Assembly (NCBI GenBank): GCA_011037195.1
Contig: JAAEAF010014543.1
Location: 1 to 64,000, forward strand
DNA length: 64,000 nt
Source: Triatoma infestans
Lineage: Eukaryota; Arthropoda; Insecta; Hemiptera; Reduviidae
Reading direction: 5' to 3'
The translations under genes were made by a program, and so were the position numbers. Positions 9,701 to 41,974 of the stretch are shown here, piece by piece (position 1 is the stretch's first letter; each line of letters opens with the position of its first letter). Under the pieces are notes generated by a model, which saw only the letters and a list, made by a program, of their open reading frames with translations, was not told where the DNA came from and searched no databases.

Positions 9701-12700
9701 TGATTAAACCTTAGTCGATTAAGAGTTGTGGAGAAACGCCATTCCTTTGCAAACCAAGGTTGACTTGGAATACACAATTTGATTTCACCGTAGTCCGTAT
9801 CTTTCGTTTCTATGAGCCATTTATTAAGACATTTGTTAATTCCATACATGCTTAGACACAAAGATGGAACATATTCCTTTTACTTTGCTCTTCAGTTTTT
9901 TGCTAATCTGTCGGACATTTCATCACTAAACTTTATCCTTTAATCTATGCCAAATGTATCTTATCTTCAATTTTCTCCAGGGAATGAGCGATGCTGATGA
10001 TAGAGGAATTTCTGCTATCTTTCAGGCATTTCTGTTGCCATTGTTATTTTATGTAAAAGACTGGCTACCCAAGCGTGCCTAGTTGATACATCTGTCAGAA
10101 CCCTGACCCAGTACTCTACTCAGGGAGAGAAGATGAGTAAGTCTCCCTATCTTGAACCTTTTATAAATTGTTTAGGCTGGAGACACCTCGCTAGCCCCTG
10201 AGTGCTTCTCCAATTTTTTTTTCGATTCTGTTGCAGAATTGCTTAGTTACGACTACTACTGGCTGGGACCACAAAATGTTAATGTGGATACCATCTTAGC
10301 CAACTCGTCCCTCTCTCGTTGCCCCCTATACCTACTTTAGAGGTAGAGAAACTTTCCATTTCCTCTCTCCTGGCTCATCTTGCATATGTTTTAACCCTGA
10401 TTATTGTCTTGTTTCTGGGTTTTATTTATTTGTTTCATTTTCCGCGGGCATTTTCTTTTTTTTTTTTGTAATTTAAGGCGCGTCAACATCTATGGTCATT
10501 GGCGCCCGGAGCATTTTCAGTGCACTGCCTGCCTCCGGGCAGTGTTCTCTCGTTTCCGCGGATAATTATTTTCATTTCATCTGAGACCCATCCTAATGTT
10601 TTACGATGTTTTTTAATTTGTATAACATAAAAAATATTATATTACGAACGTTTTCCATACACCAAGCCCAATAATTACAATATTTATTTTAATATATACA
10701 TACATTTTCTATGTTATAAATTCTGGAATAGGAGGACTAATAAAGCAAAGAAGAATCGAGGAAATTGACTGCCGATATGCAGCAGCCATTATTGGTTAAT
10801 ATTATTCGTCTAGTGGGAGGGTCCAAACTCTCCATATCCTGGGCCCCCATAAGCTATCCCAAATATAATTTAAGTCTTAATTATAATAGAAATGTCCGGA
10901 ACTCCTTTGAAAATTTAATTTTTTAAAATATTGATAAAATGTCATTACAGAGTCCTATAGCTTCTTCCTCTATATACGAAGATAATGTGCCACCAGGATG
11001 TGTTCAACATTTTGTGCCGGGTAATTTATTCTATTTTATTTTTGAAAATATTTCTATATCAGTTTTATTTTGTAAATAATTATTTATAATAGTAATTATT
11101 GTTAATATAGGTCATATTGCATGCAGAAAAAATTCTACAGAAAATGATATACATGAATACAGTGCGACTTATGTAGCATTTGGACCAAATGGAAACGAAT
11201 TGTTAGTTAATTTGGGAAGTGAACAAATATATTTGTACGATATAAATACGAATATGACTAGTCTTTTAGTTCGTCTTACCAATGACAACAGAGGTTTGTA
11301 GCCTTTGCAACTAATTAACAACTTGCCTAGTTTCATTGCCATATCTCTGTTACGTGGTTCACTTAACATCTTAATTGGCCTTACCGTTTTTTTTTGTTTG
11401 TTTCAGAGTTGAAAGAACCATTGAAAGGTTACTGTATGAATGGAATTAATTCTACATCATCCGATTTATCGTCCAGAAATAAACCTACCTTACCTGAGCA
11501 TATAAATTCCTTAAAACTTGGCGTATGTATTTTATAGTCGTCTTAAAAAGTTTTTGTCTTGCTTTGTTCAAATTTTCTCTCATTGCTGTGATTGATAATT
11601 GCAATTCTTCTATTGGCTCTGCGGCAATTTAAGGATTTATTTTTTTCTTAAGCCTCTATCTTCTCTTACACATAGTTTTATTTATTTCTCTTACTGCATT
11701 CCGTTCACACCACCGTATCTGACACGAAGGTTCGGCCAAAAGCTATAACCGGAAATGCGTGCAAACCATATTCCATTTTTTTTTTTTTTTAAACAATTTT
11801 TCGCTATTTTGAAAAATTTATCACGTGTAGATTCTCCCTTTGATATAACGTAGATGATTACTTAACATTTAGTAAATATAAGTTTAAAGAATATTTATCA
11901 ATAACAATTATAATGATCTTTCATGAAAAACGCTTAGTTACCAAGTTGGGGCCGCTCCGCTCCAGTGGTTCATTGAAGCATTGTAAATCCAATACCATTT
12001 AAGGCGATTCTCTTTTGAAGAAGCTCACTTGCAATATGGGTGAACCGTCGGTTTATGTGGCAATCCATTGAGGCGATCTCAATCCGGACACTTCTAAGTA
12101 TTTTTCAATGATGGATGACGATAGTGAGATTCGATCTCAATCCGGACACTTTTAAGTATTTTTCAATGATGGATGACGATAGTGAGATTTGGTCTTTAAA
12201 AATAAAATAAAAACTTATATTTTTGCCAACGTTTCGACAAATATATTGTCTTAATCAAGACATAAAAATAATAAATGTTAAACATTAAAAAATGACACAA
12301 CACTTTATTTGTTGAAAAATTAGTATGTGTATACACAGCAACACCCCAGAGAACAGTGAACATAAACACCACAGTGTACAGCGAATGAAGGTTGGAGCGG
12401 GTATGATAGATTTGTCGAAACTTTGGCAAAAATATATGTTTTATTATTTTTAAAGACCGAATCTCCTTATCCTCATCCATCATCTTAAGATCGATCAAGA
12501 AAAATATTCCGTATTTTTCAATCATAACTGTGTAAATTGTAATATGAGAAAGTCATGTGAGTGTTTCATATCCGATTTTTTTTTTTTTTGTTACAATTTT
12601 CTCAAAATTGGTTCCAATAATTATCTTTAAACTTGGTATAACTTCGCATATACTGCCTTCACTTTTTTTGGAATGTTGCAAGCTGATTTCAGAGAAGTTT

Positions 12701-15700
12701 TCGAAAGATGAAACACTACGTTGCGTCTCTCTTCAAATTGCCATTTCAGTCTTGTATAGTTTCTCATAACAGCAGAATATTGCAATTAAATTAAAAGTGT
12801 TGTTTCTAGTATGAGAAAGTATAGCGATCGTATCAAATTTTCGAAATTGAGTTTTCACTTGAAAAATGTTTTGTGGTGGTCCCCTGGGTTGCCAAAGGTC
12901 TGTGAGTTCAATTTAACAAAATATCTCATAAAACGACAAATCACAGGAACCTCAAAACTTCGTTCGTATACCGTTATATAGTTTAGAGTACTACAACCGC
13001 ATCAGACATGAAGTTTTTGGACAAAATCCATCAATAGGATGCGACTTTACTAAATGATTTTTTTCAATTTTTCATGTTTTTTTTTCCGAAAAAGGCTTCA
13101 ACGATTTTCTTTAAACTTTGTTTACTATCTACACTTACAATACCTATCACTTTTATTTGTAATATTTTCTTGAAAAAATTGATTTTTTGTGTGGTTCTGA
13201 GGGAACAGTAGCGTTTTCTACTGCTTTTCTCTAAAATATCATTTGACTACAATTTATGATTCTACCACCTATATAATATTAATATACGTACATTAGAAGC
13301 ATAGCTAGAATTTTAATTATGAAGAAAATCTGCTAACCAGAAGTGCGAGTTTCTTCCATATTAGTTTTTTTTTTCTTTTTCTTTTTTTTTTCTAAGTTTT
13401 GGAATTTTTCTTTTAAAACTTGGAATGCCAACTGCACAGATATTTAAAAAAAAAAAAAAATTGATTTTAGATAGTTGTGTGGAATTGCTGACGTCAAATT
13501 TCAAATGTTATAAAGTTTGTTTAATGTTATTCACGCGCTGTTCTGGACTACAATGAAATCATTTTCTGCCTACCTGGGTTGGTAGGTTAGTAATTGTTCT
13601 CTTACCGACAAATGAGTAAAATTTTATCTTAAAGAAAATTTGCCAGCTTATATGTAATTGTACTCACAGTAATAAGAGTGTGGGGGTGTATAACTTCCAC
13701 TCCACGAAAGAATTCACAATAAAACGTTACTTGAGAAGAACTAAAAAGAACTTGTATAAAAAACACTGGACTCACTAAGCTTCTAATCGCGCGTGAACAC
13801 ACATGGTTCTCAGGGAAGTACATAGCCTGTTATAATAGTTTTCTATCGATTCGATCACCGCCGTTATTGATTATGGGGCCCCCTCACATCACTCCCCCCC
13901 AATAACGGCGTCGAGGAACCGCACTGAGGGTTTAACAGTCCTGCCGGAACGGGTCGTGGTGTGCGCTGGAACAGGAAGTGCGTGTTGAGATGGCCTCGCA
14001 GCGGCTGGAGTGGGTGTCAACTCGTCTGGTTCAGCTAAAATAACTGCGGGCTTTAGACGATCTATCGAGACGGTGACCTTATTCCCGTCGATATTAATTT
14101 TAAATGTCTTAGCACTCCTGGAAATAACCTGGTACGGCCCCTTATAAGGTGGTTGCAGAGATTTTTTTATTGTTAAATCTTTGAGGAAGACGTGGGTGCA
14201 AGTAGCGAGCTGAGGGTGTACGAAAGTCTTATGTGACTTCGGGACCGCTGGTGGTTGAAGTTGTTTCATAAATGACCTCAATTGTGTTATGTGCTCGCTG
14301 ATGCCTGCGGAACCTGCTGTAGGGGTAAAGAATTCTCCGGGTACTCTCAAGGCCTGGCCATATACTGCCTCAGCCACACTAGCATTCGTATCTCTTCTGA
14401 CGGCGGTGCGAAGCCCCAGTAATACAGTCGGGAGCGCGTCCGCCCAGTGCGCTGAACTTGTATGTGCCATCAGAGCGCTTTTTAAGGTTCTATGCATCCT
14501 CTCAACGCAGCCATTGGCCTGGGGGTGGTAAGCCGTCGTTCTTATGCGTTCTGTGCCCAAAAGGTTCGTTAGACTACGGAACAGCGCCGATTCAAATTGT
14601 CTCCCTTGATCAGTTGTTATTCTGCGGGGTGATCCGAATCTGGAGACCCAAACCTGATAAAAAACTGTTGCCACCGTTTCTGCACAGATGTCCTGGACGG
14701 GCACTACTTCCGGCCAGCGCGTGAAGCGATCTACCATCGTGACACAATACTGAAAACCTTTTGATGGTGGAAGCGGGCCGATGAGATCTATATGTACATG
14801 TTCAAACCTCTTACAAGCCGGAAAGGTTCCCAAAGGTGCCACTATATGTCTTGTTACCTTTGATTTTTGGCAAGCTATACAACTCTTAGCCCAATTGCTA
14901 ATATCACGGTTCATATTGGGCCAAAAATACTTACTACAAATCAGCTTGCGGCTTGCTCTTGGTCCAGGATGGCTGGTACGGTGCAATGTGTTAAACATCG
15001 GTCTCCTAAAAGCAGCTGGCAAATATGGACGACCATTGCCTGTTGTCATCTCACACCAGATATTTTTCCCCCAACCGGGAATAACGAGGTGTTGCCAGGA
15101 GAGGTTTGACTGTTTAAGAAGGGGTGGAAGGTTTGTGTCAATTTCTTGTGCATGGGCTAATTCTGCCCAGTCCGCCTCCAGGGATACATCTTCGATCCTT
15201 GATAAGGCGTCCGCCACCAGATTCCCCTCTCCTTCTACATGGCGTACATCCGTGGTAAACTCGCTTATAAAGTTAAGCCACCTGGTGCGCATAGGAGAAT
15301 CCGGCGATTTTCTCTGACGGAAGGCATATATTAAAGGCTTATGATCAGTTAGGGCAGCAAAATTTCTTCCTTCCAATGTTTGCCTAAAATGTTTTATTGC
15401 CAACATAATAGCCAGTAATTCCCTGTCGTAGGTAGAGTACTTGGCTTGTGCAGGACTCAACGTTTTTGAATAGAATCCCAATGGAACCCAAGTGTCGCCC
15501 TCTCGTTGTTGTATGACTGCTCCTACGGAGGTTTCGGATGCGTCACAAGACAATGTGATTTCAGCACCCTCAGCAGGGTGTCCAAGGTTTGTTGCTTGTC
15601 GTAGGTTCGTGATGCACCGCTGGAAGGCAGCTATTGTCTCTTCAGTCCATTCGATAGTTCTTTTATCGTTCTTTCTGGAGTTCTTCAGGTACTTGTTTAG

Positions 15701-18700
15701 AGGACGCTGTGTTTCCGCTGCTCCTCTGAGGCAAGGCCTGTAAAAATTCACCATTCCAAGAAAGCGTCTGAGGTCTGACACAGTGTTTGGTAAAGGATAT
15801 TGAGCTATGGCCTGGACTCTAGTTTCGAGGGGTTTAATGCCGCACGGTGTGACCTTATACCCAAAAATTCTATTTCATTCTCACCAAACAGACATTTATG
15901 AGGGTTTATAACTATGCCATGTTCATGTAATCTGCGAAAGACCTCTCTTAGGTGTTGCTCATGTTGATTTCTGTCCTCTGATGCCACAAGAATGTCGTCC
16001 AGGTAGACGAAGCAGTAATCCAGGTCCCTAAATACGTTGTCCATAAAGCGCTGAAATGTCTGCGCAGCATTACGAAGGCCGAAGCACATGCGAGTAAATT
16101 CATAAAGGCCAAATGGAGTAATCAGTGCCGTTTTTGGAATATCTTCCGCTGCAACTGGGATTTGATAATAAGCTCTGATCAGGTCAATCCTAGAAAAAAT
16201 TTGTTTATTATGTAACTGCATGTTAAAATCCATTATATTTGGTACTCCATACCGGTCAGGTAAGGTTTGGGCATTTAGGCGGCGGTAGTCTCCGCATGTC
16301 CTCAGAGACCCATCTTTTTTTACAACCACGTGCAGGGGGCTTGCCCACGGGCTTTTTGAGGGACGGCAAATACCCTCTTCCATCATCCGTCTAAATTCTT
16401 CTTTTGCTGCCCGATACCTTTCTGGTGCTAAACGGCGAGCTTTTGCAACCACCGGTGGTCCTGTAGTTTCTATATGATGTTGGATGCAGTGTTTAACTGG
16501 ATCCCTATGGCCTATTATCGGACTTGGACGCGTTACTCCAGGAAATTCTTTAAAAATATCTGCAAAGGGCTGGGAACCTGGGATGGCTGAAATAGTAAGC
16601 GCAGTGACCCTTAAAACGTACCCTTTTGACGTCAAACCCGTCTGCTGGTCGATAATTTGGCGCCCCTTCAGATCCACCAATAGCCCATAGTGGTACATAA
16701 AATCTGCCCCGATTATGGGCTTTGGCACCGCTGCTACTATGAAAGTCCATGTAAACGCTTTGCGGAGTCCTAAATCCAATTTCATTTGCTTCTCGCCATA
16801 GGTGCGTATAATGGTGCCATTTGCGGCATACAATGGAAATTCTAGAGGTGTCTGTTTCCCTGATGTAGGTAACGGAAGCACTGAAATGGCTGCCCCAGTA
16901 TCTATAAGGTAGGGCATACCAGAGCGTTTATCCTTAATAAACAGACGGGGTTGTATTTCGCGGGTACTGGATTCCGCCACTTCCAGCACCCTCTCTAGTT
17001 TTCCGGGTCTAATGTAGGTTCTACCGTCTCTACCTTATTTTTCCAGTTGCAGGGTTTTTCACATTTTTTTGCCTGGTTGCCAAATTTATAGTGGTAAAAG
17101 CACAACCAGGAAGGGTGTTCCGGTCCCCGTTCCCTTGATCTAACACGAGCGCGAGATCTGTTTCGTGATCTGTCTTGGTTTTCTCTAGTTCTGCTATATT
17201 GCGATTTCAATTCGGCCACCTCTTTTGTTAAGCGCCGTACTTCCTCGACCAAGTCTGTAGTAGGGCTGGATTTACTGGTAGTACAAATCTCAGTAGGAGC
17301 AGCTACCTCTTGAATCTTATCGGCTACCTCTGCCAACTTCTGTGGATCTGTTTGCCCTGTTGCTTGTAAGATAGCTTGGGTATTTGGCGGTAAAGATCTT
17401 AGCCATAACATCTTCACCATATCTTTTGCGACTGTCTCCAATATCACGTCGGGGTCACCAATGTGGGGGTGTATAACTTCCACTCCACGAAAGAATTCAC
17501 AATAAAACGTTACTTGAGAAGAACTAAAAAGAACTTGTATAAAAAACACTGGACTCACTAAGCTTCTAATCGCGCGTGAACACACATGGTTCTCAGGGAA
17601 GTACATAGCCGTTATAATAGTTTTCTATCGATTCGATCACCGCCGTTATTGATTATGGGGCCCCCTCACAAGAGAATGTAGTATATGTCTCGCATTAGAT
17701 GTTTTTTTTTTTAATTTTAAAATTGTATGTTACTACAGGGCAATTCATTTTTTGAAAAAAAATGTTACTCAGTGGCAATAAGAATTTATAATCAAGCAAT
17801 AGCCCAACACCCAGACAGTTCTGTACTTTATTCTAATAGAGCAGCCGCTTATATGAAAAGAGAGTGGTAAGGTTATGTAAAGGTTGCACTATATGGATTT
17901 TATTCTATTATTAATATTTTATAGAATCATATGTAATTTAGGTGCGGTGATACATATGCTGCTCTTCGTGATTGTATAACTGCTTTAAACTATGATCCGA
18001 AAAATGTTAAAGCATACTTCAGGTACATATTATTTTTATTATATGGATTATTAGTTTTAAAATCACAATACAAGTTTTTATAATTATATTTTTTTTAGAC
18101 TGACAAGGTGTTTGTTTGATTTGGCGTGGTACGATGAGGCTAAATTAACACTACATAGTTTTAAGCAACATTTTCCATCACATGCGAAGTTGCTAGCATG
18201 TCGTGCACTGGAAAGAGATATTCTTACGAAATTGGAATCATTAGGTAAAGTGTAATTTTTCAATTTTATTTACTAACTTATTTATTTCTAAAAATATTAA
18301 TTTACTTGATCAAAAATAACTTTTCAATCCTATACTTACTACTGACATGCTAATAGCATTTTCCATCACGCTATGTCACGTAAAAAAAAAAAATTTGCTT
18401 CACACTCATGTTTGGTGTCTTAATTTTTATTTCCCTTATTGCATTAATAAAACAATTATTACGATCGTGCCAAGTTTTTGACATTCAGTTTTCACCGAAA
18501 ACTGTGTTATTATGAGTTTTCGTGAATATAAAAAAAAAAAAATTTGTAGTTGGGCCGTTGATAAGGAAACAAGCAAAATGATACCAAAGAAAAAACTTTT
18601 CAGCTTTTTTTAAAAAAAAAAAAATTTTTTCTGAAGTTTCGGAAATCTTTGGTTTCATTCTTCAGGAATTGTCAAGGAGAGGAGTAGACGAGTTAAATGT

Positions 18701-21700: not shown

Positions 21701-24700
21701 GGGAAGAAACGGTGAATGATTTTCCGGAGCAGGACAAGGTTACTTTGGCAGGAGGGCAGCGGGATGGGATACTTAGACCATCATTAAAATGTTCACGGAA
21801 ACCTAAAAAGATTAAAATAAAAGATGTTTTTACTTTTAATTAAAACATAAAATTTCAAAAAGGCTTTGCATATTTTCAATGTACGCATATTTGAATTGTA
21901 CTTTGTTTGCTTTAATTAAAAACGACCGTTTTAACAGTAAGCTCGAAACGTCAGTCATATGCTAATAAAATGAAGATTATCAAAGGGTTGTGTGTGACAC
22001 TATGACAGAGGCAATCTCATAGCTCGCACTGTATGTCACCATTACGTATCAAAAAAATTTTTAAATAATTTTAGATGACAGTATGGATGATAGTGGTGAG
22101 TTAGACTTTGCCAGTGATATTAGTCCAAAAGAATCTGAATGGAGAGAAAAAGCCAAAGATTATCGTCTAAGGTTCTATGGCCACTGCAATACTACCACAG
22201 ACATAAAAGAAGCTAATTTCTTTGGAAGGTATGCAGCATACTGTAGTGAATTTATTTTTTACTATTTAAAAACAATAATCAAACAAGCAAAAAATTAGTT
22301 GGCTTGCGCTAAAGAAGAAACTTTTTTAAAAATAAAAAGTTTCTTCTTTGGCCCCAGCCAACTAATTTTTTGCTTATTTAATTAACAACGGCCAAACATA
22401 ACTATTGTTTACATATTGAAAAAGGACAATGGTTAAGAAAACTGTTGCTTTATTTGTTTAGTGATGGAGAATTTATTGTTGCTGGCTCTGATGATGGATC
22501 AATCTTTTTCTGGGATCGCAAGACAACTAACAACATTAGGATACTAAGAGGCGATTCATCTATAGTTAACTGTGTCCAGCCACATCCAACGTGTTGCCTT
22601 CTTGCGACTTCTGGAATTGAACATCGTATACGTCTTTGGAGTCCCCGTTCTGAAGTGAATAATTTTATTAGTCTACCTTCATTTTAAATACTTTTTTTTT
22701 TTGTTGTAAATAATCGGTTATGTGGTTTTTTATATTGGCTGTTTATGTTATTTTATATATAGAATTTGTGTGTTTTGTAATAAAAACTTTGAAACCATTG
22801 GCAGCTTTAAATTTTTTATTTAAATGCTGTTGATTAACATTTAGTCATCTCCTTTACGTTTCGGCATTTCACATGCCATTATCAAAAGGTTTTATCAATA
22901 AAACAGTACATTATCTTATTAAGTATAATGGAGGTTTATTACTATATTGTTATATGTCTCTGATGCTTTCCAGCTCTGCGGAACCAACCACCATAACAAA
23001 TATTGTTATATGCTTTGGTTGTTAAATATATGTATGCAAATTTGTTAACAGAGTTTTATTTTCTTCATTAGTATGCTGCTTTTGTATAATATATTATAGT
23101 TACCCACTAAACTGCGAATAGCTAGGGTTAACTCAACCGACAGCCTATCAAGAAAAATAGTAAAAGTATATCCAATTTAATTAAAACAACCAGTACAAAA
23201 TCACGTGGTGCACCATTTAAAAAACGAAGTACAAATATCTCCAAACGGAGTTCATATTCATTTCAAAATAAATTAAACTATAATATATTGAATAAAAGCA
23301 GCATACTAATGAAAAAAATAAAACTCTGTTAACAAATTTGCATACATATATTTAACAACCAAAGCATATAACAATATAGTAATAAACCTCCATTATACTT
23401 AATAAGATAATGTACTGTTTTATTGATAAAACCTTTTGATAATGGCATGTGAAAAGCCGAAACGTAAAGGAGATGACTAAATGTTAATCAATAGCATTTA
23501 AATAAAAAATTTAAGGCTGTCAATGATTCAAAGTTTTTATTACAAAACACACAAATTCTATATAGTAAATAATTATGTTGTACAGGTGAGACGGATAAAT
23601 TAGGCTAATACCTTTAAGGAACAACAGCTGCCTATACTTTTTATTGGGAGTTACTCATTCCGCGCTACAAATTCATGTATTTTTCAATAATAGACAACTG
23701 CATTTCCATCAGTATGTGAAAGCTATTAGAGTGCAAAAGCTTTATAGTGGTCTGGTTTAATACAGTTGACCACCTTTGCCTTAAACATAGAAAAAACAAA
23801 AAAACTCAAAAATTGAAATCATAAAGGCTTCATATCAAATAGATAATATTTAAACCTAAACATCTTTTAAGAAAGAAAGTAAAATTTTGCCTGGCTGAAA
23901 TGAAAAATTCTACTTTAACAAACAAAAAAAATTTTTTCAATGATCTCTTTGTTTTTGTGTAATATTATTTAATTTTGTTCTGGATTATAAAAAATGTTGC
24001 TTTATATTTTGTCGTAATTTTATGACATAAAACGAAAATATATAGTTATATGACGGGTCAACTAATATATAGTTTCTTAAGACGGGTCAACATCAGTACC
24101 ATTAAGACCTGGAGCCTTCTTATTGTACTGCCAGCCTCCAGGCAGTGTTCTCTCGTTAAAAACAATACTGCACATCACCGGACAGTGACCGCAACGCTAC
24201 TTACTTCTGATACTTTATAATTTCCCTATAATAAAAAATTCAAAGAAAATCATCAGTAGAGTGCTAATAAAAAACAAATATATGCCTGTTAACTATAATA
24301 GCCCAGGAAGTCTGTTATTTACAAAAAAAAGAAAAGAAGAAAATACACACACTGACGTCCTTCTCCTGCCAACGTAATCTGTTGGTCATCTTCTATAAAG
24401 GCATTTATAATCATACTTCCCCATATCTGCCTTCCTCGAAGCATTGATTTCATTAAAGGATTCGGAAGATTCTTGATAGGTAAAGCGAAAAGAGCTCGAA
24501 CAAAGTATTTCCAGAAGTGGACTTGACAATAGCTATGATCTTATCATCGAATCCAGGATGTATATAACCACTACTCATCCAGAGAGTCCATGATAGTGAC
24601 AATTTTTTATTAAAACAAGAGTTCCTGCAATTAGTTATCTGCAGATTTTATCCACTTTATAGTTGCAGATGATATTTGGATGACCAATTTTCAAAAAAAA

Positions 24701-27677
24701 AAAAAGGTGGCACTGATTGTTACACTAAACGAGTGAATTTATTGGTTGCTGTTGAATTAAACAAGGTTTGAATGGTTGAAGCAAACAAAAACCTATAAGA
24801 AAGTAAGCCAGGACAAACACGGATAAATCTTAGGAGTCAGAGAAGAGGTCCAAGGTCCTCAGTTTGAAAATCAAGGTATCAAATTCAATATATGAGTGTT
24901 AAATCTCAAAAGATGTTTCAACAAATGCTATATAATTATGAATAATTATGCTAAGTTGATATTATAAAAATGTTTTTTTATATATAATAAAATATTTAAA
25001 GATATACAATTGAATGGTGTAATAATGACTATTTACAGTTTACAAGTACTAGTTTACTGTACCTGTAAATTGAACTTTTATTACACCATTCAATTGTATA
25101 TTTAAATATTTTATTATATATAAAAAAAGTTTTTAGAATGTCAACTCAGCATAATTATCATAATTATATAGCATTTGTTCAAACATTGTTTTCAGATTTA
25201 ACACTCATACTGTAAAAACATATTGCAATAAAAAAGAAGAAAAAAACCTCTTGAGAATAGCATGCAGAATGCTGAAACGTTGAGGTAAAAATAGAAATAT
25301 AATATAAAAATTAAAAAGGCTATTTAAACTTGAGGTTCATTATGTGTTGTTTTAACAAAACACCTATTATATAAATTAAATATTAAAGAAGTTAGCCTAT
25401 CTAACAAACATATCAAATCAAATTACAATATTGCAAGTATATGATGGCTCTAGTAACTTAATCTCTGATAACACCGTGAGTGTGATTTTTGAAAATTAGT
25501 CTACCTCAGCAAGAGCCTCTATGAAACTTCATCCTCCCGACCTATCTGGAAACAATCACAATTTTTGCGTAATTAGTTCTGCATGTAAGATGACTAGACC
25601 TATTATTATTTAAAAAATAAATAAATAGCTTATATGTATAAATATATGCCAAGCGGGTCAAAGATGCGACCTATGGTTGCTATGCGGTATTGAGTGCTAA
25701 TTTATTAATAGCAATTTAAAAATATATCCTGTTAGTGATTCCAGATCAAACCAAGTACTTTTTACTTAGGGTCTTGGATCAATTTCAAACCATGGCTGCT
25801 TGATTTCCTTTTATGATCCCTCATATTCTACTTACTCCTCTAATCCTAATAACCTAGCTCTTCATATTCTCTCATGAAACTTTTGTACTGTGTATATATA
25901 CTAGGATCATTCCCTAATCTTTTTTATAATATCAGAAGTATGTATCTTGCTATTTCTTTTCAGTCACCCCAGTCACTAGCTTACATCATCATCTTGAATG
26001 ATAGTTTCTGTGTACAACTAGCTTACAAAGCTTTTCCTTATCTGTGAACTGTTACTTATCACGTTTACATTCTTCTAGTTCTTCCAGATTTCCATTAATT
26101 TCATCAGTGGTAGATAACCAGTATGTTGTGGAAATGTTTGTGATTGTTCTAGTTTCTAGTTTGTCTGATACGATCCAGTCTTAATGTCGTATTCTGAAAG
26201 ACAAGTGTTTAGTTGCCTAATTTGATTAATTGTAACATTTTTTTACACTTCTCTTGTAATCATTTTTTTTGTAAATTTGTTAGTAATATATTATTATCGA
26301 TTATGGATTTGAAGCTTTCACAAAATGAAGTTCCAAATTCCTCAAAATTTCCAACAAAATGTAGATTCACAGATGGTAATTTTATGGGAATATTGTGGTA
26401 TATTATTTGGAAATATTAAGTTTCTGATTCGAGCCAGTTTTATTGCCGGACATCTTGGAGTAGTATTTGTTTGAATTCAAATTTTTATTGTGGTTATTCG
26501 AAAACCTTTTATTTCAATTTTAGTTAATTGATTTGTTCTGGGCTAGCTTTTGTGGCCAAATATGTTTTTAAACCTTGACCTTACAATACTGCGTTGCTTT
26601 TTTAAAGTTTCTGTAGTTGGCTTGGTTTTTATGCAACATTACATGCATTCAGTACTAAATAATATAACAGGAAAAAAATAAAGAAAGAAAAATAATGGTG
26701 ATAAGATTAATAATAAGAAATACTAATAGCTACTAGTATCAGGGTATTATGATGGGTCGGCGGACATACGTTTAACACCCGTTCCACTGTTTTTACTCTT
26801 CTATTGTCGGAGTTTTTGTTGATAAGCCACCGGTATTAATCCATAAAGCGCACAGTTTTCTCATTTTCAGTGAATTTATTCTGTTTGACCAAACAATTCT
26901 TTAGAGTTTTAAAGTTGGGCCTTTGCTGAATTATTCGATTAAAATCACAACTTCAACTTATTATTATTATTATTATTATTCCAAAGAGACTTACTAGAAA
27001 TATTTTAGAAAGTAGATAAAACCATTTAAATTCTCCTACTTATATTGATGAAATTCAAAAATTGGTAAATCTTAATAAATGTAAAAAAGGTTGAAAGGAG
27101 TGTTTGTTAGCCATATGGCCGCCATGCTGGACCCATCACAACACACTAATACTAATGTAGTATATAACTGAAATAATAAAATTGAATATAAACGAAAAAA
27201 TTTGTAAAAATAACACTTTGACGATCTATTGAATTAGACATAATGCATATATGCTAAAAAAACTTTTATTCCACTGATTTTATTTCTGCACCACACTAGA
27301 ATGCACAGTGACGCCGCAGAATTCGATACCCGCCCCCACCACGCGATAATCCCATGAATAATTAGTTTGTGTAGCTGTTTGAATGAAATTATTGTATTAA
27401 AAGAATGTCATATGATTGTTTCATATTAAAGGGATTTTTTCCCCCTTTTAATGATGAAATTTAAAATGTTTCCAAGGATACTTATTATTTTTTTTGTTTT
27501 TTGCAGCATGGACTTGAAGATCAACTTGAAATACTCGAACGAGACGAAGTAGCTGAAACAAATCAACGTAGGATGCAAGCAGATCCTTTTGATGTGGTGT
27601 TAATGAATATGGGACTGAACGCAGTAATAGATAACACAGACCCAATAGGTGCAACTTATGGATGCCGAACCAGTTAG
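665..27677 (+). CDS. WDTC1: WDTC1/adipose: WD40-TPR protein (12 exons, 5' end missing)
   Basis: Twelve exons join in phase with GT-AG junctions: 665-776, 899-1086, 2350-2545, 10951-11020, 11111-11293, 11407-11522, 17739-17866, 17942-18022, 18099-18244, 22075-22228, 22462-22654 and 27507-27677. They give about 578 residues against roughly 677 in the human protein, so the first ~80-100 residues lie upstream. Order: WD40 blades (SAAEDGLIR; AVGANDPYIRIYDRR), a blade rich in VAFGPNGNELLVNLG, three TPR-like helices pairs (NRAAAYMKREW, RCLFDLAWYDEA), a linker with GHCNTTTDIKEANFFG, then two further WD blades and a conserved tail (NQRRMQADP). In flies and mammals this protein (adipose, DCAF9) is a CUL4-DDB1 substrate receptor that restrains fat storage. 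FWDRK and IYDRR resemble DDB1-binding WDxR motifs; that is inference. Introns hold most of the mobile DNA of the left half. Confidence 0.93.
899..1086 (+). CDS. WDTC1: WDTC1 exon B
   Basis: Acceptor tttgtag, donor gtatca. It starts in phase 0 with FMPETNGEIIVTGAGDHEV and ends WSAAEDGLIR with a split arginine codon. It holds one complete WD blade plus the conserved RVKRLATAP and FWSAAEDG segments. Confidence 0.92.
1300..1430 (+). mobile_element. Possible fragment of a non-LTR reverse transcriptase
   Basis: A short stretch in a WDTC1 intron reads like the N-terminal reverse-transcriptase motif 'PxGPDGVxMQTVKAL', but it is interrupted by stops. It may belong with the retroelement C-terminus at 4490-5090, since both have a similar style. 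Too short to classify. Confidence 0.3.
1663..2175 (+). repeat. Direct repeat pair in WDTC1 intron
   Basis: A segment near 1668-1752 (containing acttctcaagcgattagcat and a following atattctgctttatctg) recurs near 2098-2172 with few changes (agcgattagcatagacaaca, then gattctgctttatctatttg). The copies lie about 430 bp apart. Origin not recognised. Confidence 0.7.
2350..2545 (+). CDS. WDTC1: WDTC1 exon C
   Basis: Acceptor tttttccag, donor gtgagt. It completes the split arginine codon, then runs QFDLRLPHS to MIKLVK. It contains EAKCLAVNP and AVGANDPYIRIYDRR, which match the vertebrate blade ending VRLYDIRM almost residue for residue. An 8.4 kb intron follows. Confidence 0.93.
2590..2870 (-). mobile_element. 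Possible degenerate non-LTR retrotransposon C-terminal fragment
   Basis: The minus strand near 2680-2760 reads like the cysteine-histidine tail of retroelement polyproteins (SPICQNCDDGV, then a VYHYLCTPC-like segment). It is followed by an A-rich stretch of AAATA repeats at 2845-2872 on the plus strand. Weak evidence. Confidence 0.3.
3060..4110 (+). repeat. Modular noncoding repeat 'M', near-complete copy
   Basis: This copy shows the order shared by the family. First comes a 5' block with 'cgtatcaaattttc', 'accggaaatatcc' and 'agcatagctcaaaaac'. Then come repeated ~330-bp modules, each with 'ccggaagt', a poly-T run, 'gattttctc', 'acaatttttt-gaaactt', 'cttttatttgaaacatttct' and 'ggggtggggtt'. 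The 3' end is 'gagtgtttcacaccagattt' just after 'gagtaatagaaag'. There is no coding potential. Ends resemble inverted CTTTCTCTTACT/AGTAAGAGAAAG seen in better copies, which suggests a non-autonomous DNA element. Confidence 0.7.
4480..5090 (+). mobile_element. Non-LTR retrotransposon C-terminal fragment (CCHC, endonuclease-like region)
   Basis: The plus strand reads RRCGREPETPAHVLGTC, a C-x2-C-x8-H-x4-C motif of the C-terminal zinc finger of R2-like and related elements. After one stop, it continues in the frame at 4662-4904 with a segment like RYADIVT and VFVLDPTI. That region is where restriction-like endonuclease elements carry their PD-(D/E) residues. More of the tail is traceable in shifted frames to about 5090. 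It is a decayed, 5'-truncated copy. R2/NeSL-type affiliation is inference. Confidence 0.6.
5250..5670 (+). repeat. Modular repeat 'M', partial copy
   Basis: Contains the family blocks 'aactcaaacttggtattcc', 'gtgcgactttactaaatgat', 'acgattttctttaaacttcg' and 'cttttatttgaaacatttt'. It stops where the I-like retroelement tail begins near 5640. Confidence 0.65.
5640..6545 (-). mobile_element. I-like non-LTR retrotransposon 3' end: RNase H and CCHC tail (copy 1)
   Basis: The minus frame 6527-6075 is an RNase H domain: a conserved FQTEVYAI segment, ICSDSHAAL, and VWVPGHMGIFGNEEVDRFA, the 'VPGHxGxxGNExAD' signature. A shifted frame continues from about 6068 to 5787 with LTGHCGL and CRLCDTEEKTPIHLMTEC (C-x2-C-x8-H-x4-C). 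The 3' UTR ends at a short (AAT)n tail near 5650, as in I elements. At least one frameshift separates RNase H from the tail. Copies 2 and 3 lie at 37480-37960 and 40494-40860. Confidence 0.8.
6558..6815. repeat. Foldback of two inverted Penelope-like terminal repeats
   Basis: The left arm (6558 to about 6680, from 'ttttccgtggtagcctgctt' to 'acaacacagactt') is the reverse complement of the right arm (about 6700 to 6815). The spacer is about 20 bp. The same unit occurs singly at 51985-52115 and 8480-8590 next to a Penelope-like C-terminus, and as another inverted pair at 40929-41217. Confidence 0.85.
6733..6770 (+). ncRNA. Hammerhead-ribozyme-like core in foldback right arm
   Basis: Order: CATC (stem I), CTGAAGA, a hairpin with GGC/GTC-type pairing, GAAA, CCGG, TC and GATG (stem I). 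All canonical catalytic-core bases are present. Stem III is only A-U and C-G around a palindromic ACCGGT. The predicted cleavage is after GTC, before GATG. One unpaired base lies between the core and stem II. The left-arm copy has GCC in place of GTC at the cleavage triplet. Confidence 0.6.
6820..6960 (+). repeat. Modular repeat 'M', short fragment
   Basis: Contains 'cttttatttggaacattta' and 'cccggaaaaattcatt', the blocks found in every module of the family. Confidence 0.5.
7165..7700. pseudogene. Tc1-family transposase with an inverted internal segment
   Basis: On the minus strand from about 7475 to 7200 the reading is AARRKPFLSAINKKK, LEFAKLH, LFTDESKFN (in a shifted frame) and a decayed GxVMVWG block, all in Tc1 order. 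The continuation is on the plus strand from about 7517: YFNILRKNLK, then FVFSQDNDPKHKA and YEWLVFNCPK. The 'gagggattgccc' sequence near 7190 and its complement near 7490 flank the turned segment. So a Tc1 copy has been partly inverted. Several stops make it a pseudogene. Confidence 0.75.
7720..8590 (+). mobile_element. Penelope-like element, internally deleted (copy 1)
   Basis: The left end (7727-7796, 'gtggttggttccgcagagct') is a terminal repeat in inverted orientation, cut short. It is joined to the end of a coding region that reads FASEQLFKTLFP then stop (about 7803-7845). A ~640-bp 3' part follows and ends in the direct terminal repeat with the ribozyme-like core at 8518. The same 3' half is found at 51250-52115. 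Reverse transcriptase is absent. Assignment rests on the GIY-YIG-type C-terminus of copy 2. Confidence 0.6.
8518..8555 (+). ncRNA. Degenerate hammerhead-like core
   Basis: Same layout as 52031-52068 (CATC, CTGAAGA, hairpin, GAAACCG, GATG), but the cleavage-side GGTC reads GAAC, so the required U is gone. Probably inactive. Confidence 0.45.
8591..10445 (+). other. WDTC1 intron, no gene seen
   Basis: AT-rich with AT dinucleotide runs near 8612-8646 and 8841-8868. Between 9580 and 10430 base composition is more balanced and short segments resemble decayed coding repeats, but no family was recognised. Confidence 0.4.
10446..10575 (-). mobile_element. SINE 3' part, copy 1
   Basis: Reading the minus strand: 'gagaacactgcccggaggca', 'tgctccgggcgcc', 'atgaccatagatgttgacg', then CCTTAAATTAC and an A-run. 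The same block occurs at 24068, 43925 and 57476. The copy at 43925 continues into a tRNA-like head, so this is the body and tail of a tRNA-derived SINE. Confidence 0.65.
10951..11020 (+). CDS. WDTC1: WDTC1 exon D
   Basis: Acceptor tcattacag, donor gtaatt. It reads SPIASSSIYEDNVPPGCVQH and ends FVPG with one carried base. This corresponds to the variable loop before the VATYVTFSPNG blade in vertebrates, where sequence is not strongly conserved. Confidence 0.85.
11111..11293 (+). CDS. WDTC1: WDTC1 exon E
   Basis: Acceptor aatatag, donor gtttgt. It contains ATYVAFGPNGNELLVNLGSE and QIYLYDI, matching the vertebrate ATYVTFSPNGTELLVNMGGE nearly exactly. It forms a WD40 blade. Confidence 0.93.
11407..11522 (+). 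CDS. WDTC1: WDTC1 exon F
   Basis: Acceptor gtttcag, donor gtatgt. It codes a low-conservation linker (GINSTSSDLSSRNKP) ending LPEHINSLKLG before the TPR region. The phase is clean on both sides. The following intron is 6.2 kb and contains the Ty3/gypsy element. Confidence 0.87.
11690..11885 (+). repeat. Modular repeat 'M', fragment
   Basis: Contains 'gtatctgacacgaaggt', 'aaccggaaatgcg' and a T-run followed by 'tttttcgctattttga', as in other copies. Incomplete at both ends. Confidence 0.45.
12074..12189 (+). repeat. 58-bp tandem duplication
   Basis: Two abutting 58-bp units, 12074-12131 and 12132-12189, each starting 'cgatctcaatccggacactt'. They differ at about one position (cttct versus ctttt). 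This suggests a recent tandem duplication at the outer edge of the foldback that follows. Confidence 0.9.
12163..12475. repeat. Foldback element with ribozyme-like core
   Basis: The left arm (about 12163-12241: 'aatgatggatga', then 'ggtctttaaaaataaa', then 'gccaacgtttcgacaaat') matches the reverse complement of the right arm (about 12408-12475: 'atttgtcgaaactttggc', 'taaagaccgaatct', 'tcatccatcat'). The spacer is about 165 bp. Confidence 0.8.
12225..12262 (-). ncRNA. Hammerhead-like core, UUGAUUA variant (degenerate)
   Basis: On the minus strand: GTC (stem I), TTGATTA, A, GACAA hairpin TTGTC, GAAA, CGTT, GGC (stem I). Stem III is the palindrome ACGT. Position 8 is U instead of the A seen in the related families, so this copy is probably decayed. 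Confidence 0.4.
12540..13490 (+). repeat. Modular repeat 'M', about three modules
   Basis: Shows 'gtcatgtgagtgtttcatatccgatttttt', read here as the 3' end of one copy. Then come a 5' block near 12813-13040 ('gatcgtatcaaattttcgaa', 'caaaacttcgttcgta') and module blocks near 13045-13200 and 13330-13450. The flanks are jumbled, so copies may be nested. Confidence 0.6.
13679..13888 (-). repeat. Ty3/gypsy 3' LTR
   Basis: 210 bp, TGTGGGGGTG on the plus strand at the outer end, CCCCCTCACA at the inner end. It is identical to the other LTR except for one extra T (cctgttat versus ccgttat). The pol frame ends exactly at its inner edge. Confidence 0.95.
13889..13904 (-). other. Polypurine tract and pol stop
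   Basis: On the minus strand 'ttgggggggagtga' lies directly before the 3' LTR, overlapping the last codons and TGA stop of pol. This purine run is the expected plus-strand primer site. Confidence 0.75.
13889..15781 (-). pseudogene. pol: Ty3/gypsy pol, 3' part: RT thumb, RNase H, integrase
   Basis: About 630 residues. It begins in the RT connection (SDLRRFLGMVNFYRP), then RNase H (LSCDASETSVGAV, TYDRELLAI, ALTDHKPL), an HHCC zinc finger (HRTSHPG to CIACQKSK), and the integrase core with D (HVHIDLIGPLP), D (RITTDQGRQFES) and E (AYHPQANGCVERMHRTL). The C-terminus has no chromodomain signature. It is intact internally, but separated from the upstream RT by a one-base frameshift near 15860-15870, where the two frames overlap around FLG. 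Called broken for that reason. Confidence 0.93.
15805..16989 (-). pseudogene. pol: Ty3/gypsy pol, 5' part: protease and reverse transcriptase
   Basis: About 394 residues. Aspartic protease signature YLIDTGAAISVLP near residues 28-40. RT fingers and palm follow with RTCGDYRRLNAQTLPDR, then FSRIDLIRAYYQIPV and the catalytic FVYLDDILVAS. The frame ends in a spurious tail after FLG because one base is missing near 15860-15870; the correct reading continues in the frame of the 13889-15781 segment. The open frame extends upstream of the first listed codon and overlaps the end of gag in the -1 frame, so no AUG of its own is required. Confidence 0.92.
16995..17606 (-). pseudogene. gag: Ty3/gypsy gag, N-terminal half deleted
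   Basis: The reading frame opens inside the 5' LTR and crosses the primer site, so its first ~50 codons are LTR-derived and not true gag. Real capsid sequence begins only near MLWLRSLPPNTQAIL, a segment normally in the second half of Ty3/gypsy capsid. A basic linker (RSRNRSRARVRSRER) and an atypical zinc-finger-like tail (LCFYHYKFGNQAKKC) follow. The matrix and N-terminal capsid coding are missing, and capsid sequence starts a few bases after the primer site. This points to an internal deletion. Confidence 0.85.
17443..17460 (-). promoter_or_regulatory. Primer binding site, tRNA-Trp
   Basis: Plus strand atcacgtcggggtcacca, one base from the 5' LTR (17461 intervenes). This is the 3' end of animal tRNA-Trp including CCA, an 18-base match from memory of the conserved tRNA-Trp acceptor and T-arm. 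Confidence 0.85.
17462..17670 (-). repeat. Ty3/gypsy 5' LTR
   Basis: 209 bp, one base shorter than the other LTR. It ends CTCACA directly before the AGAG target copy. Confidence 0.95.
17739..17866 (+). CDS. WDTC1: WDTC1 exon G (TPR)
   Basis: Acceptor tactacag, donor gtaagg. It reads GNSFFEKKCYSVAIRIYNQA and SVLYSNRAAAYMKREW, the first TPR helix pair. The vertebrate sequence is LYGNRAAAYMKRKW at this point. It follows directly on the intron holding the Ty3/gypsy element. Confidence 0.94.
17942..18022 (+). CDS. WDTC1: WDTC1 exon H (TPR)
   Basis: Acceptor aatttag, donor gtacat. It reads CGDTYAALRDCITALNYDP and ends VKAYFR. Second TPR, closely matching DALRDCLKAISLNPCHLKAHFR. Confidence 0.93.
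18099..18244 (+). CDS. WDTC1: WDTC1 exon I (TPR)
   Basis: Acceptor ttttttag, donor gtaaag. It reads LTRCLFDLAWYDEAKLTL then HFPSHAKLLACRALERDI. Third TPR and the conserved helix that follows it. Confidence 0.93.
18935..19830 (+). repeat. Modular repeat 'M', near-complete copy with clear left end
   Basis: Starts 'tactttctcttactactggt', then the 5' block 'attgtctcaaattttcgaaa' and two modules with 'gattttcttt' and 'cttttatatgaaacattttc'. It ends near 19825 with 'gagtaagtgatagtcatgtg' and 'tatcacacttc'. The initial CTTTCTCTTACT and final AGTAAG form a short terminal inverted repeat. Confidence 0.7.
19831..20870 (+). repeat. Modular repeat 'M', near-complete copy abutting the previous one
   Basis: Starts 'tagtaagaaagaagtatag', followed by 'atcgtgtcaaattttcgata' and 'agcatagctcaaaaacg', three modules, and the end 'gtaataagagaaaaatgtgt' with 'gagtgtttcacaccag'. 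It lies head-to-tail with the 18935-19830 copy. Confidence 0.7.
20985..21520 (-). repeat. Modular repeat 'M', reversed copy
   Basis: The same blocks occur in reverse complement: 'aaatatttcaaataaaagtg', 'cgattttcttaaaatttgga', 'tcttcaaataaaagtgatag' and 'agatattttggttaaacg'. Two modules are visible. Confidence 0.6.
21543..21690. repeat. Inverted repeat with a related copy at 62045
   Basis: The left arm (21548-21592, 'ctaagcagaggcagacatgt') and the right arm (21632-21682, 'cagaacatgtttgcctctgc') are complementary. A single similar arm ('ccctgaacaaaggcagccat', 'gttcaaacggagtccatcat') occurs at 62055-62110. Family not recognised. Confidence 0.65.
22075..22228 (+). CDS. WDTC1: WDTC1 exon J
   Basis: Acceptor aattttag, donor gtatgc. 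An acidic linker (DDSMDDSGELDF) leads to the highly conserved YGHCNTTTDIKEANFFG, identical to vertebrates over more than ten residues. Confidence 0.94.
22285..22375. repeat. Intronic hairpin next to the exon J donor
   Basis: The arms are 'aagcaaaaaattagttggct' with 'aaagaagaaactttt' and their complements. The loop is a short A/T stretch near 22326-22335. It starts 56 bp after the exon J donor and would form a stem of about 35 bp in the nascent RNA. Confidence 0.8.
22462..22654 (+). CDS. WDTC1: WDTC1 exon K (WD40)
   Basis: Acceptor tttgtttag, donor gtgaat. It reads DGEFIVAGSDDGSIFFWDRK, SSIVNCVQPHPTCCLLATSG and RIRLWSPRSE, two WD blades. FWDRK resembles the WDxR box used for DDB1 contact. If the donor is not used, the frame runs only 10 codons on to a stop at about 22687, and an AATAAA follows at 22779. 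Confidence 0.94.
22851..22889 (-). ncRNA. Hammerhead-like core, UUGAUAA variant (left arm)
   Basis: On the minus strand: CCTT, TTGATAA, T, GGCAT hairpin ATGCC, GAAA, CGTA, AAGG. Stem I CCUU/AAGG and stem II GGCAU/AUGCC pair fully. Stem III is the palindrome ACGU. Positions 3 and 8 are U and A instead of C and G. Confidence 0.5.
22963..23006 (-). mobile_element. Penelope-like terminal fragment inserted in the foldback
   Basis: A ~44-bp piece ('tctctgatgctttccagctc', 'tgcggaaccaaccaccataa') matches the outer terminal sequence at 7727-7770 and 40908-40945. It is flanked by a 13-bp repeat, ATATTGTTATATG, on both sides. The other arm of the foldback has the empty site. It is probably a severely truncated insertion. 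Confidence 0.7.
23432..23470 (+). ncRNA. Hammerhead-like core, UUGAUAA variant (right arm)
   Basis: CCTT, TTGATAA, T, GGC hairpin GCC, GAAA, CGTA, AAGG. Same layout as the left arm; stem II has lost two pairs (ggcat versus aagcc). Confidence 0.5.
24068..24195 (-). mobile_element. SINE 3' part, copy 2
   Basis: Contains 'actgccagcctccaggcagt' and 'gttctctcg' and 'acatcaccggacagtgac', the same order as at 43925-44010 with substitutions. No A-rich tail is clear, only 'tttcttaagacgggtcaaca'. Confidence 0.6.
24892..25209. repeat. Foldback element
   Basis: The left arm (24892-25034: 'gagtgttaaatct', 'atgctatataattatg', 'atataataaaatatttaaa', 'tacaattgaatggtgtaata') and its complement (about 25075-25209) face each other across about 45 bp. 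A ribozyme-like core lies just outside the right arm (25246-25286). Confidence 0.88.
25246..25286 (+). ncRNA. Hammerhead-like core, UUGAGAA variant (best paired)
   Basis: ACCTC, TTGAGAA, T, AGCAT, GCAGA, ATGCT, GAAA, CGTT, GAGGT. Stem I (ACCUC/GAGGU) and stem II (AGCAU/AUGCU) are each 5 bp and perfect. Stem III is the palindrome ACGU, and the cleavage base would be U. Core positions 3 and 8 are U and A. This is the clearest copy of the variant. Confidence 0.55.
25290..27506 (+). other. WDTC1 last intron, no gene seen
   Basis: A poorly coding, AT-rich region with a (TTA)n run at 26958-26980. A pyrimidine-rich acceptor (ttgttttttgcag) closes it at 27506. Confidence 0.5.
27507..27677 (+). CDS. 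WDTC1: WDTC1 exon L (last exon)
   Basis: Acceptor ttttgcag. It reads HGLEDQLEILERDEVAETNQ, then RRMQADPFDVVLMNMGL, matching the vertebrate tail NQRRMNADPLEVMLLNMGY. The stop is TAG at 27675. AATAAA signals follow at 27786 and 27823. Confidence 0.94.
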   Translation, partial: HGLEDQLEILERDEVAETNQRRMQADPFDVVLMNMGLNAVIDNTDPIGATYGCRTS

Positions 27678-29099: not shown

Positions 29100-30545
29100 A
29101 TTTAGATATGGAGGACAATTAGAACTATAATGGGCGTCAGACCTGGTTACCAGGTCCCAGGTTTAAACATAAATGGCACAATTATCGGGAAATAGCGGAA
29201 TGTCTGGCCGAAACATTTGCGAGTGTGTCTAGAACGAAACAGTATTCTCAGGTATTTCATTCTATCAAACAGAAAGAAGAGAATAGTGAGATAGATTTTC
29301 TTGATGAAGGCGACCACCAATCTTACAACATGCCTTTAAAACTGTGGGAGTTGGAATGGTCTTTATCAAAATCAAAAGATACTTGCCTAGGAACCAATAG
29401 TGTTCATTATATGTTTTTAAAACATTTAAACCGGAAAAATAAGTTATATTTATTAAGGTTCCATAATAAAATATGGAATTCCAGACAATTTCCAAAGGCC
29501 TGGAGAACGGCACGATTCAATCACCATCTTACTCACAGTCGCTATACATAGTATCATGTCCTGTATAGCAGCCCCTGTTTTTGGAATATTATATGCCGAC
29601 GACTTGGTAATCTTTAGTAGTGCTCCAAGTGTAGAGAAAGCAAAACAGAATTTACAAATTACTGTTGCAAATTTAGAAATTTGGTCAGAGCAAAATGGTC
29701 TTCGTTTCTCACCAATAAAGAGCACATGCGTACATTTTCATAGATTCCGAAAAATTCAGCTATCAATAAAATTAAATATACAGGGCAGAACTATACCGTG
29801 TTCGGACAAAGTGAGGTATCTGGGAGTGACTCTAGATTCAGAGCTAAGTTGGCGCTCCCATATCCAAGACTTGAAACAAAGGAGCATCCAAAAATTGATT
29901 ACCACCAAAGTGGGAAGCCGATCGCCACAACTTCTTAAATTTTTATAAAGCTTTTGTTCGTAGCAGACTAGATTATGGTAGTATAATTTATGGATACTCA
30001 AAATAATAAATACTATCCATAGCAAGGGTATGTCACTCGCAGCTCTGAGAACAAGTCCAATAGAAAGTATTCCAGCTGAAAGTGGAGAACCAGCACTGCA
30101 AGTTAGAAGGGACATCCTGATGTCTAACTATGTGTCAAGGTTGTTGCCGTTAAAAAATCATGTCGCCTATGAAGTCATTTACAATCCTCAATTTGAACAT
30201 TTATACGCTAGGACAAATACAAGCACTTTACCTTTGGGCATACGTTTTAAAAATTTCTGTTTGCTAAACAATGTATCCATTCCCATGCCTGTATGTTTGA
30301 TCTCTCCAAAAATAGAACCTTGGACTTAAGTTTGACGGCACACTAGGTAAATATATTAAAAGTAAAACTCCGAACTACGTATACAAACACCTACTACAAG
30401 AGCGACTACTGCTTAAATATAAAAATTATATTAAAATATTCACCGACGGGTCAAAGGCGATAAATGGAGTAGGAGCAGCTTTCGTCATGAATGACAGGCT
30501 GTACAAGTTCCCATTAAGCAATATCTCAAGCATATCTACAAGGGA
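29100..30545 (+). pseudogene. I/jockey-like non-LTR retrotransposon, internally deleted
   Basis: The N-terminal RT region lies at 29225-29540 (a conserved LKLWELEWSL, then FHNKIWNSRQFPKAWRTA). A deletion removes the fingers-palm boundary. From 29556 comes the catalytic motif ILYADDLVIFSS and then VRYLGVTLDSELSWRSHI. A frame shift occurs near 29930; then LAALRTSPIESIPAESGEPAL (30030-30329). RNase H starts near 30425 (IKIFTDGSKAINGVGAAFV), then ends in stops. Domain order and the RNase H suggest the I-clade. Confidence 0.75.
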
Positions 30546-41339: not shown

Positions 41340-41970
41340 GAGTCAATCTATACCATTACTCAATACCGAATATATTCATAGATAATAATAGCATTGACAA
41401 ATTTAAATAAAATATCTAAATAAGAGTATTTTCAATCAAATACAAAAAAATGTTCACAAAAAATGAAATGAAAATGTATCACATTATCTGATGTCTTGTC
41501 TCTTATTCAACTTGAAAACAATTTGCAATTTGTAAAATATATATAAAAAAATTGTTCATTGTATATAAAATGAAAATTGTACTAATGAAACAAATTTTCC
41601 AACGTGAAAAGTAGAAATATATAAATAAGCATTTTTAAAAATTCTTTTTCTTCTTTTTGATCTGTATTTTAAAAAGTTTAATTTGTTTATTTTTGTATGC
41701 TTGAGCTTGAATGAGCTAGTGGTTGAGGCACGAAGGCCACATGGGTTTATTGTGCTCTTCAGTTTTTACTCTCACTAACTCTGATTCAATCGTGAATAAC
41801 ATATCAAAGCTCTTTTAGCCACCTCGCCCAATGATGGAATTATATGGGAAAGGAAGAAGGTAAGGAATTGTGTGCAGCACTCCAACCAACAGTTGAAGAT
41901 CAAAAGAGAACACTAACAGGGAAGGTGGTGATAGTAAATTATTATATAAAAGAATTTTTTGACCGTTGAT
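41340..41970. other. Intergenic, no gene seen
   Basis: AT-rich. Near 41700-41930 composition is more even, but no recognisable coding or repeat family was found. Confidence 0.4.
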
Positions 41971-41974
41971 GAAT

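Follow-up and report, generated by a model that had tools for sequence, protein, structure and literature searches.

Minimal type I hammerheads are known in Penelope-like retroelements, and a covariation from C3/G8 to U3/A8 was reported among natural hammerheads in 2011 (PMC3088659, Perreault et al.). Within the window, that is the whole 64-kb stretch of DNA analysed here, a sequence-only reading had described a core UUGAGAA with U3/A8 and a palindromic ACGU at 25246-25286, and both the sequence and the coordinates proved correct. Read directly, the plus strand gives ACCUC-UUGAGAA-U-AGCAU/AUGCU-GAAACGU-U-GAGGU, a hammerhead-like core made up of the following parts.

25246 to 25250, plus strand: 5' strand of stem I (ACCUC), paired with 25282-25286 over 5 bp and covarying among copies
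25251 to 25257, plus strand: core UUGAGAA, with U3 at 25251, A8 at 25256 and A9 at 25257 as assigned from the alignment
25258, plus strand: extra unpaired nucleotide U25258, between A9 and stem II
25259 to 25273, plus strand: stem II AGCAU/AUGCU with loop GCAGA, 25259-25263 paired with 25269-25273 over 5 bp
25274 to 25281, plus strand: GAAACGU (25274-25280) followed by U17 (25281), from the sequence
25282 to 25286, plus strand: 3' strand of stem I (GAGGU), paired with 25246-25250
25318 to 25397, plus strand: 3' flank with hairpin arms GGCTA ... TAGCC, resembling the tail layout of complete elements

The palindromic ACGU would form stem III between two copies of the motif, and cleavage is predicted, by homology, 3' of U25281. 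The claim that stems I and II are both 5 bp long held for their length, but stem II had to be placed as AGCAU/AUGCU with U25258 left unpaired. Indeed, the alternative pairing UAGCA/UGCUG consumes G25274, which is the G of the conserved GAAA, and the other copies in the window read in the AGCAU/AUGCU style. The energy fold alone favours a 6-bp stem II that includes a U.G pair at the focal motif. The extra nucleotide before stem II was found in all five window motifs, in a scan allowing offsets of 0 and 1, and in 56/56 of the C/G matches with a stem II of at least 4 bp, among the matches listed.

A structured scan of the window that left positions 3, 7 and 8 and the two letters of stem III free gave five motifs; all of them carried CG in stem III and four carried U3/A8. 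As a chance control, 60 dinucleotide shuffles gave on average 0.48 motifs, 0.017 with CG in stem III and none with U3/A8 (maxima of 4, 1 and 0, respectively). The heptamer GAAACGT occurs nine times in the window, and the motif was present at six of these places and absent at three. An Rfam search returned no hammerhead at the gathering threshold, nor at E-values up to 10.

U3/A8 was present as claimed at the other places that had been named, which lie in the first two of the elements below.

22748 to 23572, unstranded: inverted-repeat element whose U3/A8 motifs, at 22849-22891 (minus) and 23430-23472 (plus), face outward
41946 to 42330, unstranded: element with a U3/A8 motif at 42014-42057 (minus) and a decayed partner near 42276 (plus)
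12110 to 12510, unstranded: element with a U3/U8 motif at 12222-12264 (minus) and a decayed right arm
49416 to 49459, plus strand: U3/A8 motif whose stem II contains a mismatch; part of a left arm lies at 49141-49209

The second element has a 12-bp direct repeat on its two sides, at 41934 and 42331, and another 12-bp repeat lies at 12098/12511 for the third, its left copy falling within a 58-bp tandem duplication; a target duplication was looked for at 22748-23572 and none was found. The idea that the families are otherwise unrelated holds poorly, because the other motifs of the window lie in one kind of inverted-repeat element. For the focal copy, neither a partner arm nor a target duplication was found, and it thus looks like a relic; its 3' flank shares a 28-nt similarity with the flank of L037, at roughly equal distance. 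The focal site probably represents a single old copy of a small, predicted self-cutting-RNA motif, which a large group of this genome's mobile elements carries.

Genome-wide, the U/A pattern gave 8,097 matches (compare with 2,025 for the reversed-pattern control) and the C/G pattern 12,426 (compare with 385). The C3/G8 form is present in the same genome, with the same outward-facing layout, and U3/A8 is best read as the compensatory pair that had been proposed, although this pair had already been described. Covariation at positions 3 and 8 appears, from these pattern counts, as two abundant double states only, U3/A8 and C3/G8. Since the 2011 report covers the same change, the U3/A8 pair is recurrent yet known in kind, and the swap is therefore a useful natural experiment and no new kind of ribozyme. 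What is new is at most the scale, with two populations (U/A and C/G) within one genome.

Adjacent matches are mostly outward-facing, inside inverted-repeat elements. Direct repeats of 10-13 bp were found at 13 of the 21 elements tested, and 12 of these 13 have a one-sided tail. The motif is probably a minimal hammerhead ribozyme variant, predicted from sequence, that is borne by retroelements; this outward-facing inverted-repeat layout, with direct repeats and a one-sided tail, is the one described for Penelope-like retroelements.

The 41 nt at positions 25246 to 25286 of the + strand read ACCUC UUGAGAA U AGCAU GCAGA AUGCU GAAACGU U GAGGU. Followed in the type I order (stem I, CUGANGA, stem II, GAAA, stem III, NUH, stem I), they contain every part of the three-way hammerhead core, with U3/A8 replacing C3/G8 and one additional nucleotide before stem II. 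The + strand sequence thus confirmed the U3/A8 core described in the sequence-only reading, and the 5-bp stem I of that reading also held. Its stem II had to be moved by one register: the UAGCA/UGCUG pairing consumes the G of GAAA, and we therefore read stem II as AGCAU/AUGCU, preceded by an extra unpaired U. The hammerhead-like motifs of the window are the following:

12222 to 12264, − strand, motif with U3/U8
22849 to 22891, − strand, motif with U3/A8
23430 to 23472, + strand, motif with U3/A8
25246 to 25286, + strand, focal motif with U3/A8 and a palindromic ACGU stem III
42014 to 42057, − strand, motif with U3/A8
49416 to 49459, + strand, motif with U3/A8

A scan of the window returned five motifs, all of them with CG in stem III and four with U3/A8, and the extra nucleotide before stem II was present in 5/5 window motifs when the scan did not force it. 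As a comparison, 60 dinucleotide shuffles of the window gave means of 0.48 motifs, 0.017 with CG and 0 with U3/A8 (maxima of 4, 1 and 0, respectively). Rfam 15 reported no hammerhead in the window, at gathering threshold or at E up to 10, and with Rfam none was found at E up to 10 in the focal stretch and eight loci, including L014, a locus of the same genome that carries a C3/G8 copy. With no hammerhead reported by Rfam, which is silent on this C/G copy too, family databases cannot settle hammerhead identity. At 23442 to 23444 (+), A9-U-G forms an AUG triplet where stem II begins (UUGAUAAUGG); the same triplet occurs at this place in further families (UUGAAAAUGG), and the focal copy has AUA instead. 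The start codon of the Anolis element has been placed at the start of stem II (PMC11167929).

We then considered whether the stems are maintained between families, using an alignment of 25 of the 28 distinct motifs found. Its rows came from a scan in which three stem II pairs and two stem I pairs were obligatory, so that part of the pairing is built in. Pairing was found in 90.8% of the cells (84% for stem I and 98% for stem II), compared with 71.4% after shuffling, and fell to 32–48% when the partner was slid by 1–3 columns. Beyond the required pairs, the third, fourth and fifth pairs of stem I were formed in 25/25, 17/25 and 13/25 rows, and the fourth pair of stem II in 23/25. Two-sided changes were observed in 10/10 pairs (nine stem pairs and 3-8), with the reservation that the alignment says little on 3/8 because 18/25 rows were taken from U/A-selected places; it likewise says little on the core, because the letters UGA, A9 and GAAACGU were fixed by the search. 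The behavior of the stems supports a predicted RNA structure common to diverged families. A covariance model built on these 25 motifs gave 10 hits with E <0.001 in a sample of 264 kb, made up of the window, one stretch adjoining the window and 19 picked by contig number: six in the window, two in L018 and one each in L002 and L014, other stretches of the genome. By 3/8 state, eight were U/A, one C/G and one U/U, in a model that leans to U/A and whose 25 sequences already included 7 of the 10 hits. A relaxed scan with 44 rows printed was left out of the counts, several of its rows being evident chance matches.

At the scale of the genome, and with no stem demanded, the U/A pattern gave 8,097 matches (2,025 with the reversed-pattern control) and the C/G pattern 12,426 (385 with the control). 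Among the matches listed, stem II of at least 4 bp was present in 56/100 U/A rows, scored at the one-extra-nucleotide offset only, and in 56/100 C/G rows, in which it began after one extra nucleotide in 56/56 cases. Again among the matches listed, neighbors at most 3 kb apart faced outward in 20/22 U/A and 17/21 C/G cases and lay on the same strand in 1/22 and 2/21, respectively. Near-identical U/A copies bearing GACAATATATTTGTC were found at 27/100 of the places listed. Both double states are thus abundant and share the same layout. The two cores even share a stem II and loop, GACAATAAATTTGTC, which among the matches listed goes with CUGAAGA in 11/100 C/G rows and with UUGAAAA in 1/100 U/A rows; over the 30 nt matched only positions 3 and 8 differ between these two motifs. 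The likeliest reading of these sequences is that U3/A8 is compensatory for C3/G8. The 3/8 covariation proposed by the sequence-only reading is therefore backed by the abundance of the two double states, and hardly by the alignment. In a search of IMG/VR (26 stretches) and GTDB (113), a Y3/R8 pattern with a GGC stem II gave 139 matches (55 U/G, 45 C/G, 26 U/A and 13 C/A); these were rejected as real motifs, stem I reaching at least 4 bp in only 4/139, and because so few have stem I we took them as chance matches and used them as a negative control.

The sequence-only reading knew of no family defined by this pair; the pair is nevertheless not unknown: covariation from C3/G8 to U3/A8 in several natural hammerheads is already in print (Perreault et al. 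2011, PMC3088659), and that paper cites in vitro activity for such 3/8 pairs. In a Penelope-like element, C3G or G8C alone abolishes cleavage and the double change partly restores it (PMC11167929). It is conceivable, at slightly under even chances in our estimation, that in several retroelement lineages the core exchanged C3-G8 for U3-A8 as one unit, and that these lineages then gave rise to thousands of copies. If so, the genome would offer a natural experiment, on a large scale, in replacing a base pair within the core of a ribozyme, and dimer-dependent cleavage might be tuned by the weaker U-A pair.

To describe the elements that carry the motif, we fetched 20 U/A inverted pairs, chosen for being paired. 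All 20 were inverted repeats with the motif about 70–140 nt inside each arm and, L041 apart, they spanned about 0.3 to 2.6 kb. Because these spans are short, the elements are probably non-autonomous and moved in trans. Exact flanking direct repeats of 10–13 bp were present in 13 of the 21 elements tested, that is, 19 fetched loci and two elements of the window (the locus L034, with an inverted repeat extending over 2.3 kb, was left out for that reason), and no target duplication was found in the other 8/21; in a mismatched-pair control, a direct repeat of at least 9 bp occurred in 12/420. The two repeats were placed asymmetrically in 12 of these 13 elements: one lay at most 6 nt from an inverted-repeat end and the other 23–39 nt beyond the opposite end. 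The direct repeats and their offset indicate that target duplications arose when many of the elements inserted, and that these elements have a one-sided tail. A hairpin resembling GACCG/CGGTC or GGCTG/CAGCC, scored from a letter list chosen after the flanks had been viewed, was completed on one arm only in 11 of the 13 elements for which both arms were scored, on neither in 2/13 and on both in none; over all motifs it was found in 14/39, against 428/20,000 random places. No inverted partner arm was found around L014, the C/G copy in the 264 kb.

Other features were seen in or near these elements. A 58-bp tandem duplication (12074 to 12189) borders the hammerhead element located near 12 kb in the window and contains the left one of the 12-bp direct repeats that flank this element. 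The locus L041 (1146 to 7147) is a 6-kb hammerhead-bearing inverted-repeat element with a long open frame in its interior; it was rejected as an autonomous copy, since the frame, in the sole element read for open frames, looks by eye like a Gypsy insertion. The window also contains a Gypsy-like retrotransposon with reverse transcriptase, RNase H and integrase domains (13889 to 17034, −) and fragments with an RNase H domain and a reverse transcriptase domain, LINE-like by eye (6075 to 6557, −, and 29457 to 29948, +).

The focal copy itself is probably a worn single arm, a relic, since neither a partner arm around 25246 to 25286 nor a target duplication was detected. Its exact 29-mer occurs once in the genome (941 Mb, 13,959 contigs), and a GGCTA/TAGCC hairpin is present in its flank, 37 to 112 nt after GAAACGU. 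Just upstream, a 319-bp palindrome (24891 to 25209, about 86% self-complementary), possibly a separate short element, ends some 40 nt before the motif and has perhaps cut the focal arm. When the focal 3' flank was compared with those of other families, only the L037 (+) flank, among the 14 best, beat all 300 letter shuffles; with one flank of 14, the likeness to this locus is merely suggestive.

How would a U/A core act? We propose that a U3-A8 Watson-Crick pair would stand in for C3-G8 and would retain the 2'-OH of nucleotide 8, a group to which hammerhead activity is sensitive (PMC11300833). Because the stem III ACGU, palindromic over 2 bp, is too short for closure within a single molecule, any cleavage would occur between two copies pairing through ACGU, by analogy with PMC7761336, with the cut in the transcript falling 3' of U17, some tens of nucleotides to about 140 nt before the 3' end of the element. 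The U/A forms would be expected to retain activity. It is also possible, if unlikely, that the U3/A8 copies are catalytically dead or weak and that the structure serves the mobilizing enzyme for binding or priming, whether maintained for this or simply copied along. According to PMC11167929, insertion in vitro is unaffected in catalytic mutants of the Anolis Penelope-like hammerhead and no RNA ends were seen by RNA-seq at its cleavage site; moreover, the present copies are repeats, in which a core can be carried along. Against a dead core, stems I and II change between families yet stay paired, and the spacing is equal in 56/56 structured C/G rows among the matches listed. Stem covariation and spacing suit a kept RNA structure, and by themselves do not tell whether that structure cleaves or binds. 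PMC7761336 describes the role that hammerheads play in Penelope-like elements as unknown. With thousands of C3/G8 and U3/A8 matches in one layout, counting could show whether the core pair is under selection, which would bear on whether cleavage matters to these elements.

That U3/A8 is simple mutational decay of C3/G8 copies, by C to T and G to A changes and not by compensation, seems improbable to us. The window is AT-rich (33% G+C), both changes run towards AT, and the U/A background is higher (control 2,025 of 8,097) than that of C/G (385 of 12,426). There are, however, whole U/A families of near-identical copies with outward pairs and target duplications, which argues that these elements moved as U/A.

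We think it probable that the focal 41 nt are a minimal type I hammerhead from the terminal repeat of a Penelope-like family that is short and probably non-autonomous. Minimal type I hammerheads of Penelope-like elements were reportedly described by Cervera and De la Pena in 2014 and by Lunse et al. in 2017. The assignment draws on the layout, in which the inverted repeats, the 30–40 nt tail, the target duplication and the hammerhead near the end of the repeat all fit published descriptions (PMC3846280, PMC11167929, PMC7761336), and the mover would then be a Penelope enzyme. In Penelope-like elements, inverted pLTRs with a 31-bp tail on one of them, a tail lying between two reverse-transcription start sites and a hammerhead at the pLTR-ORF junction have been described (PMC3846280, PMC11167929). 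Of the corresponding features, inverted or tandem pLTRs are seen in the elements (20/20 fetched pairs) and not in the partnerless focal copy, and a one-sided tail of 30–40 bp with a target duplication is matched by the 23–39 nt tails of 12/13 elements, again not by the focal copy. It is very improbable that the elements are MITE-like DNA transposons and the motif a DNA feature of their ends: such transposons would account for the paired inverted repeats and the short target duplications, but the repeats do not reach both ends symmetrically (23–39 nt lie outside at one end in 12/13), the motif is about 70–140 nt inside the arms and its stems covary.

Altogether, the U3/A8 pair is real and recurrent, as is the hammerhead-like motif, and both are explained as a case of the Penelope-like minimal hammerheads and of a core variation that had been reported before; what remains of interest is how large both populations are within a single genome. 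Among known systems, the minimal hammerheads of Penelope-like elements, dispersed by thousands in animal genomes (PMC7761336), have the same type I order and hardly any stem III; the focal family differs by U3/A8 and is known here from repeats without a linked coding element. Anolis Poseidon PAc (PMC11167929) similarly has a hammerhead shortly before the tail region, and its 3/8 pair was tested by mutation, but it has a full ORF, tandem pLTRs and C3/G8. Metazoan retrozymes (PMC7229834) are also non-autonomous with type I hammerheads; they form short tandem repeats and circular RNAs of about 170–400 nt with canonical hammerheads, whereas the present elements are inverted pairs with minimal ones, and membership was rejected since neighbors are mostly outward inverted pairs. 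A precedent for the core is the same paired change from C3-G8 to U3-A8 in the hammerheads of Perreault et al. 2011, for which the accessible part of PMC3088659 gives no family or count; here, thousands of U/A matches stand beside C/G ones in one genome.
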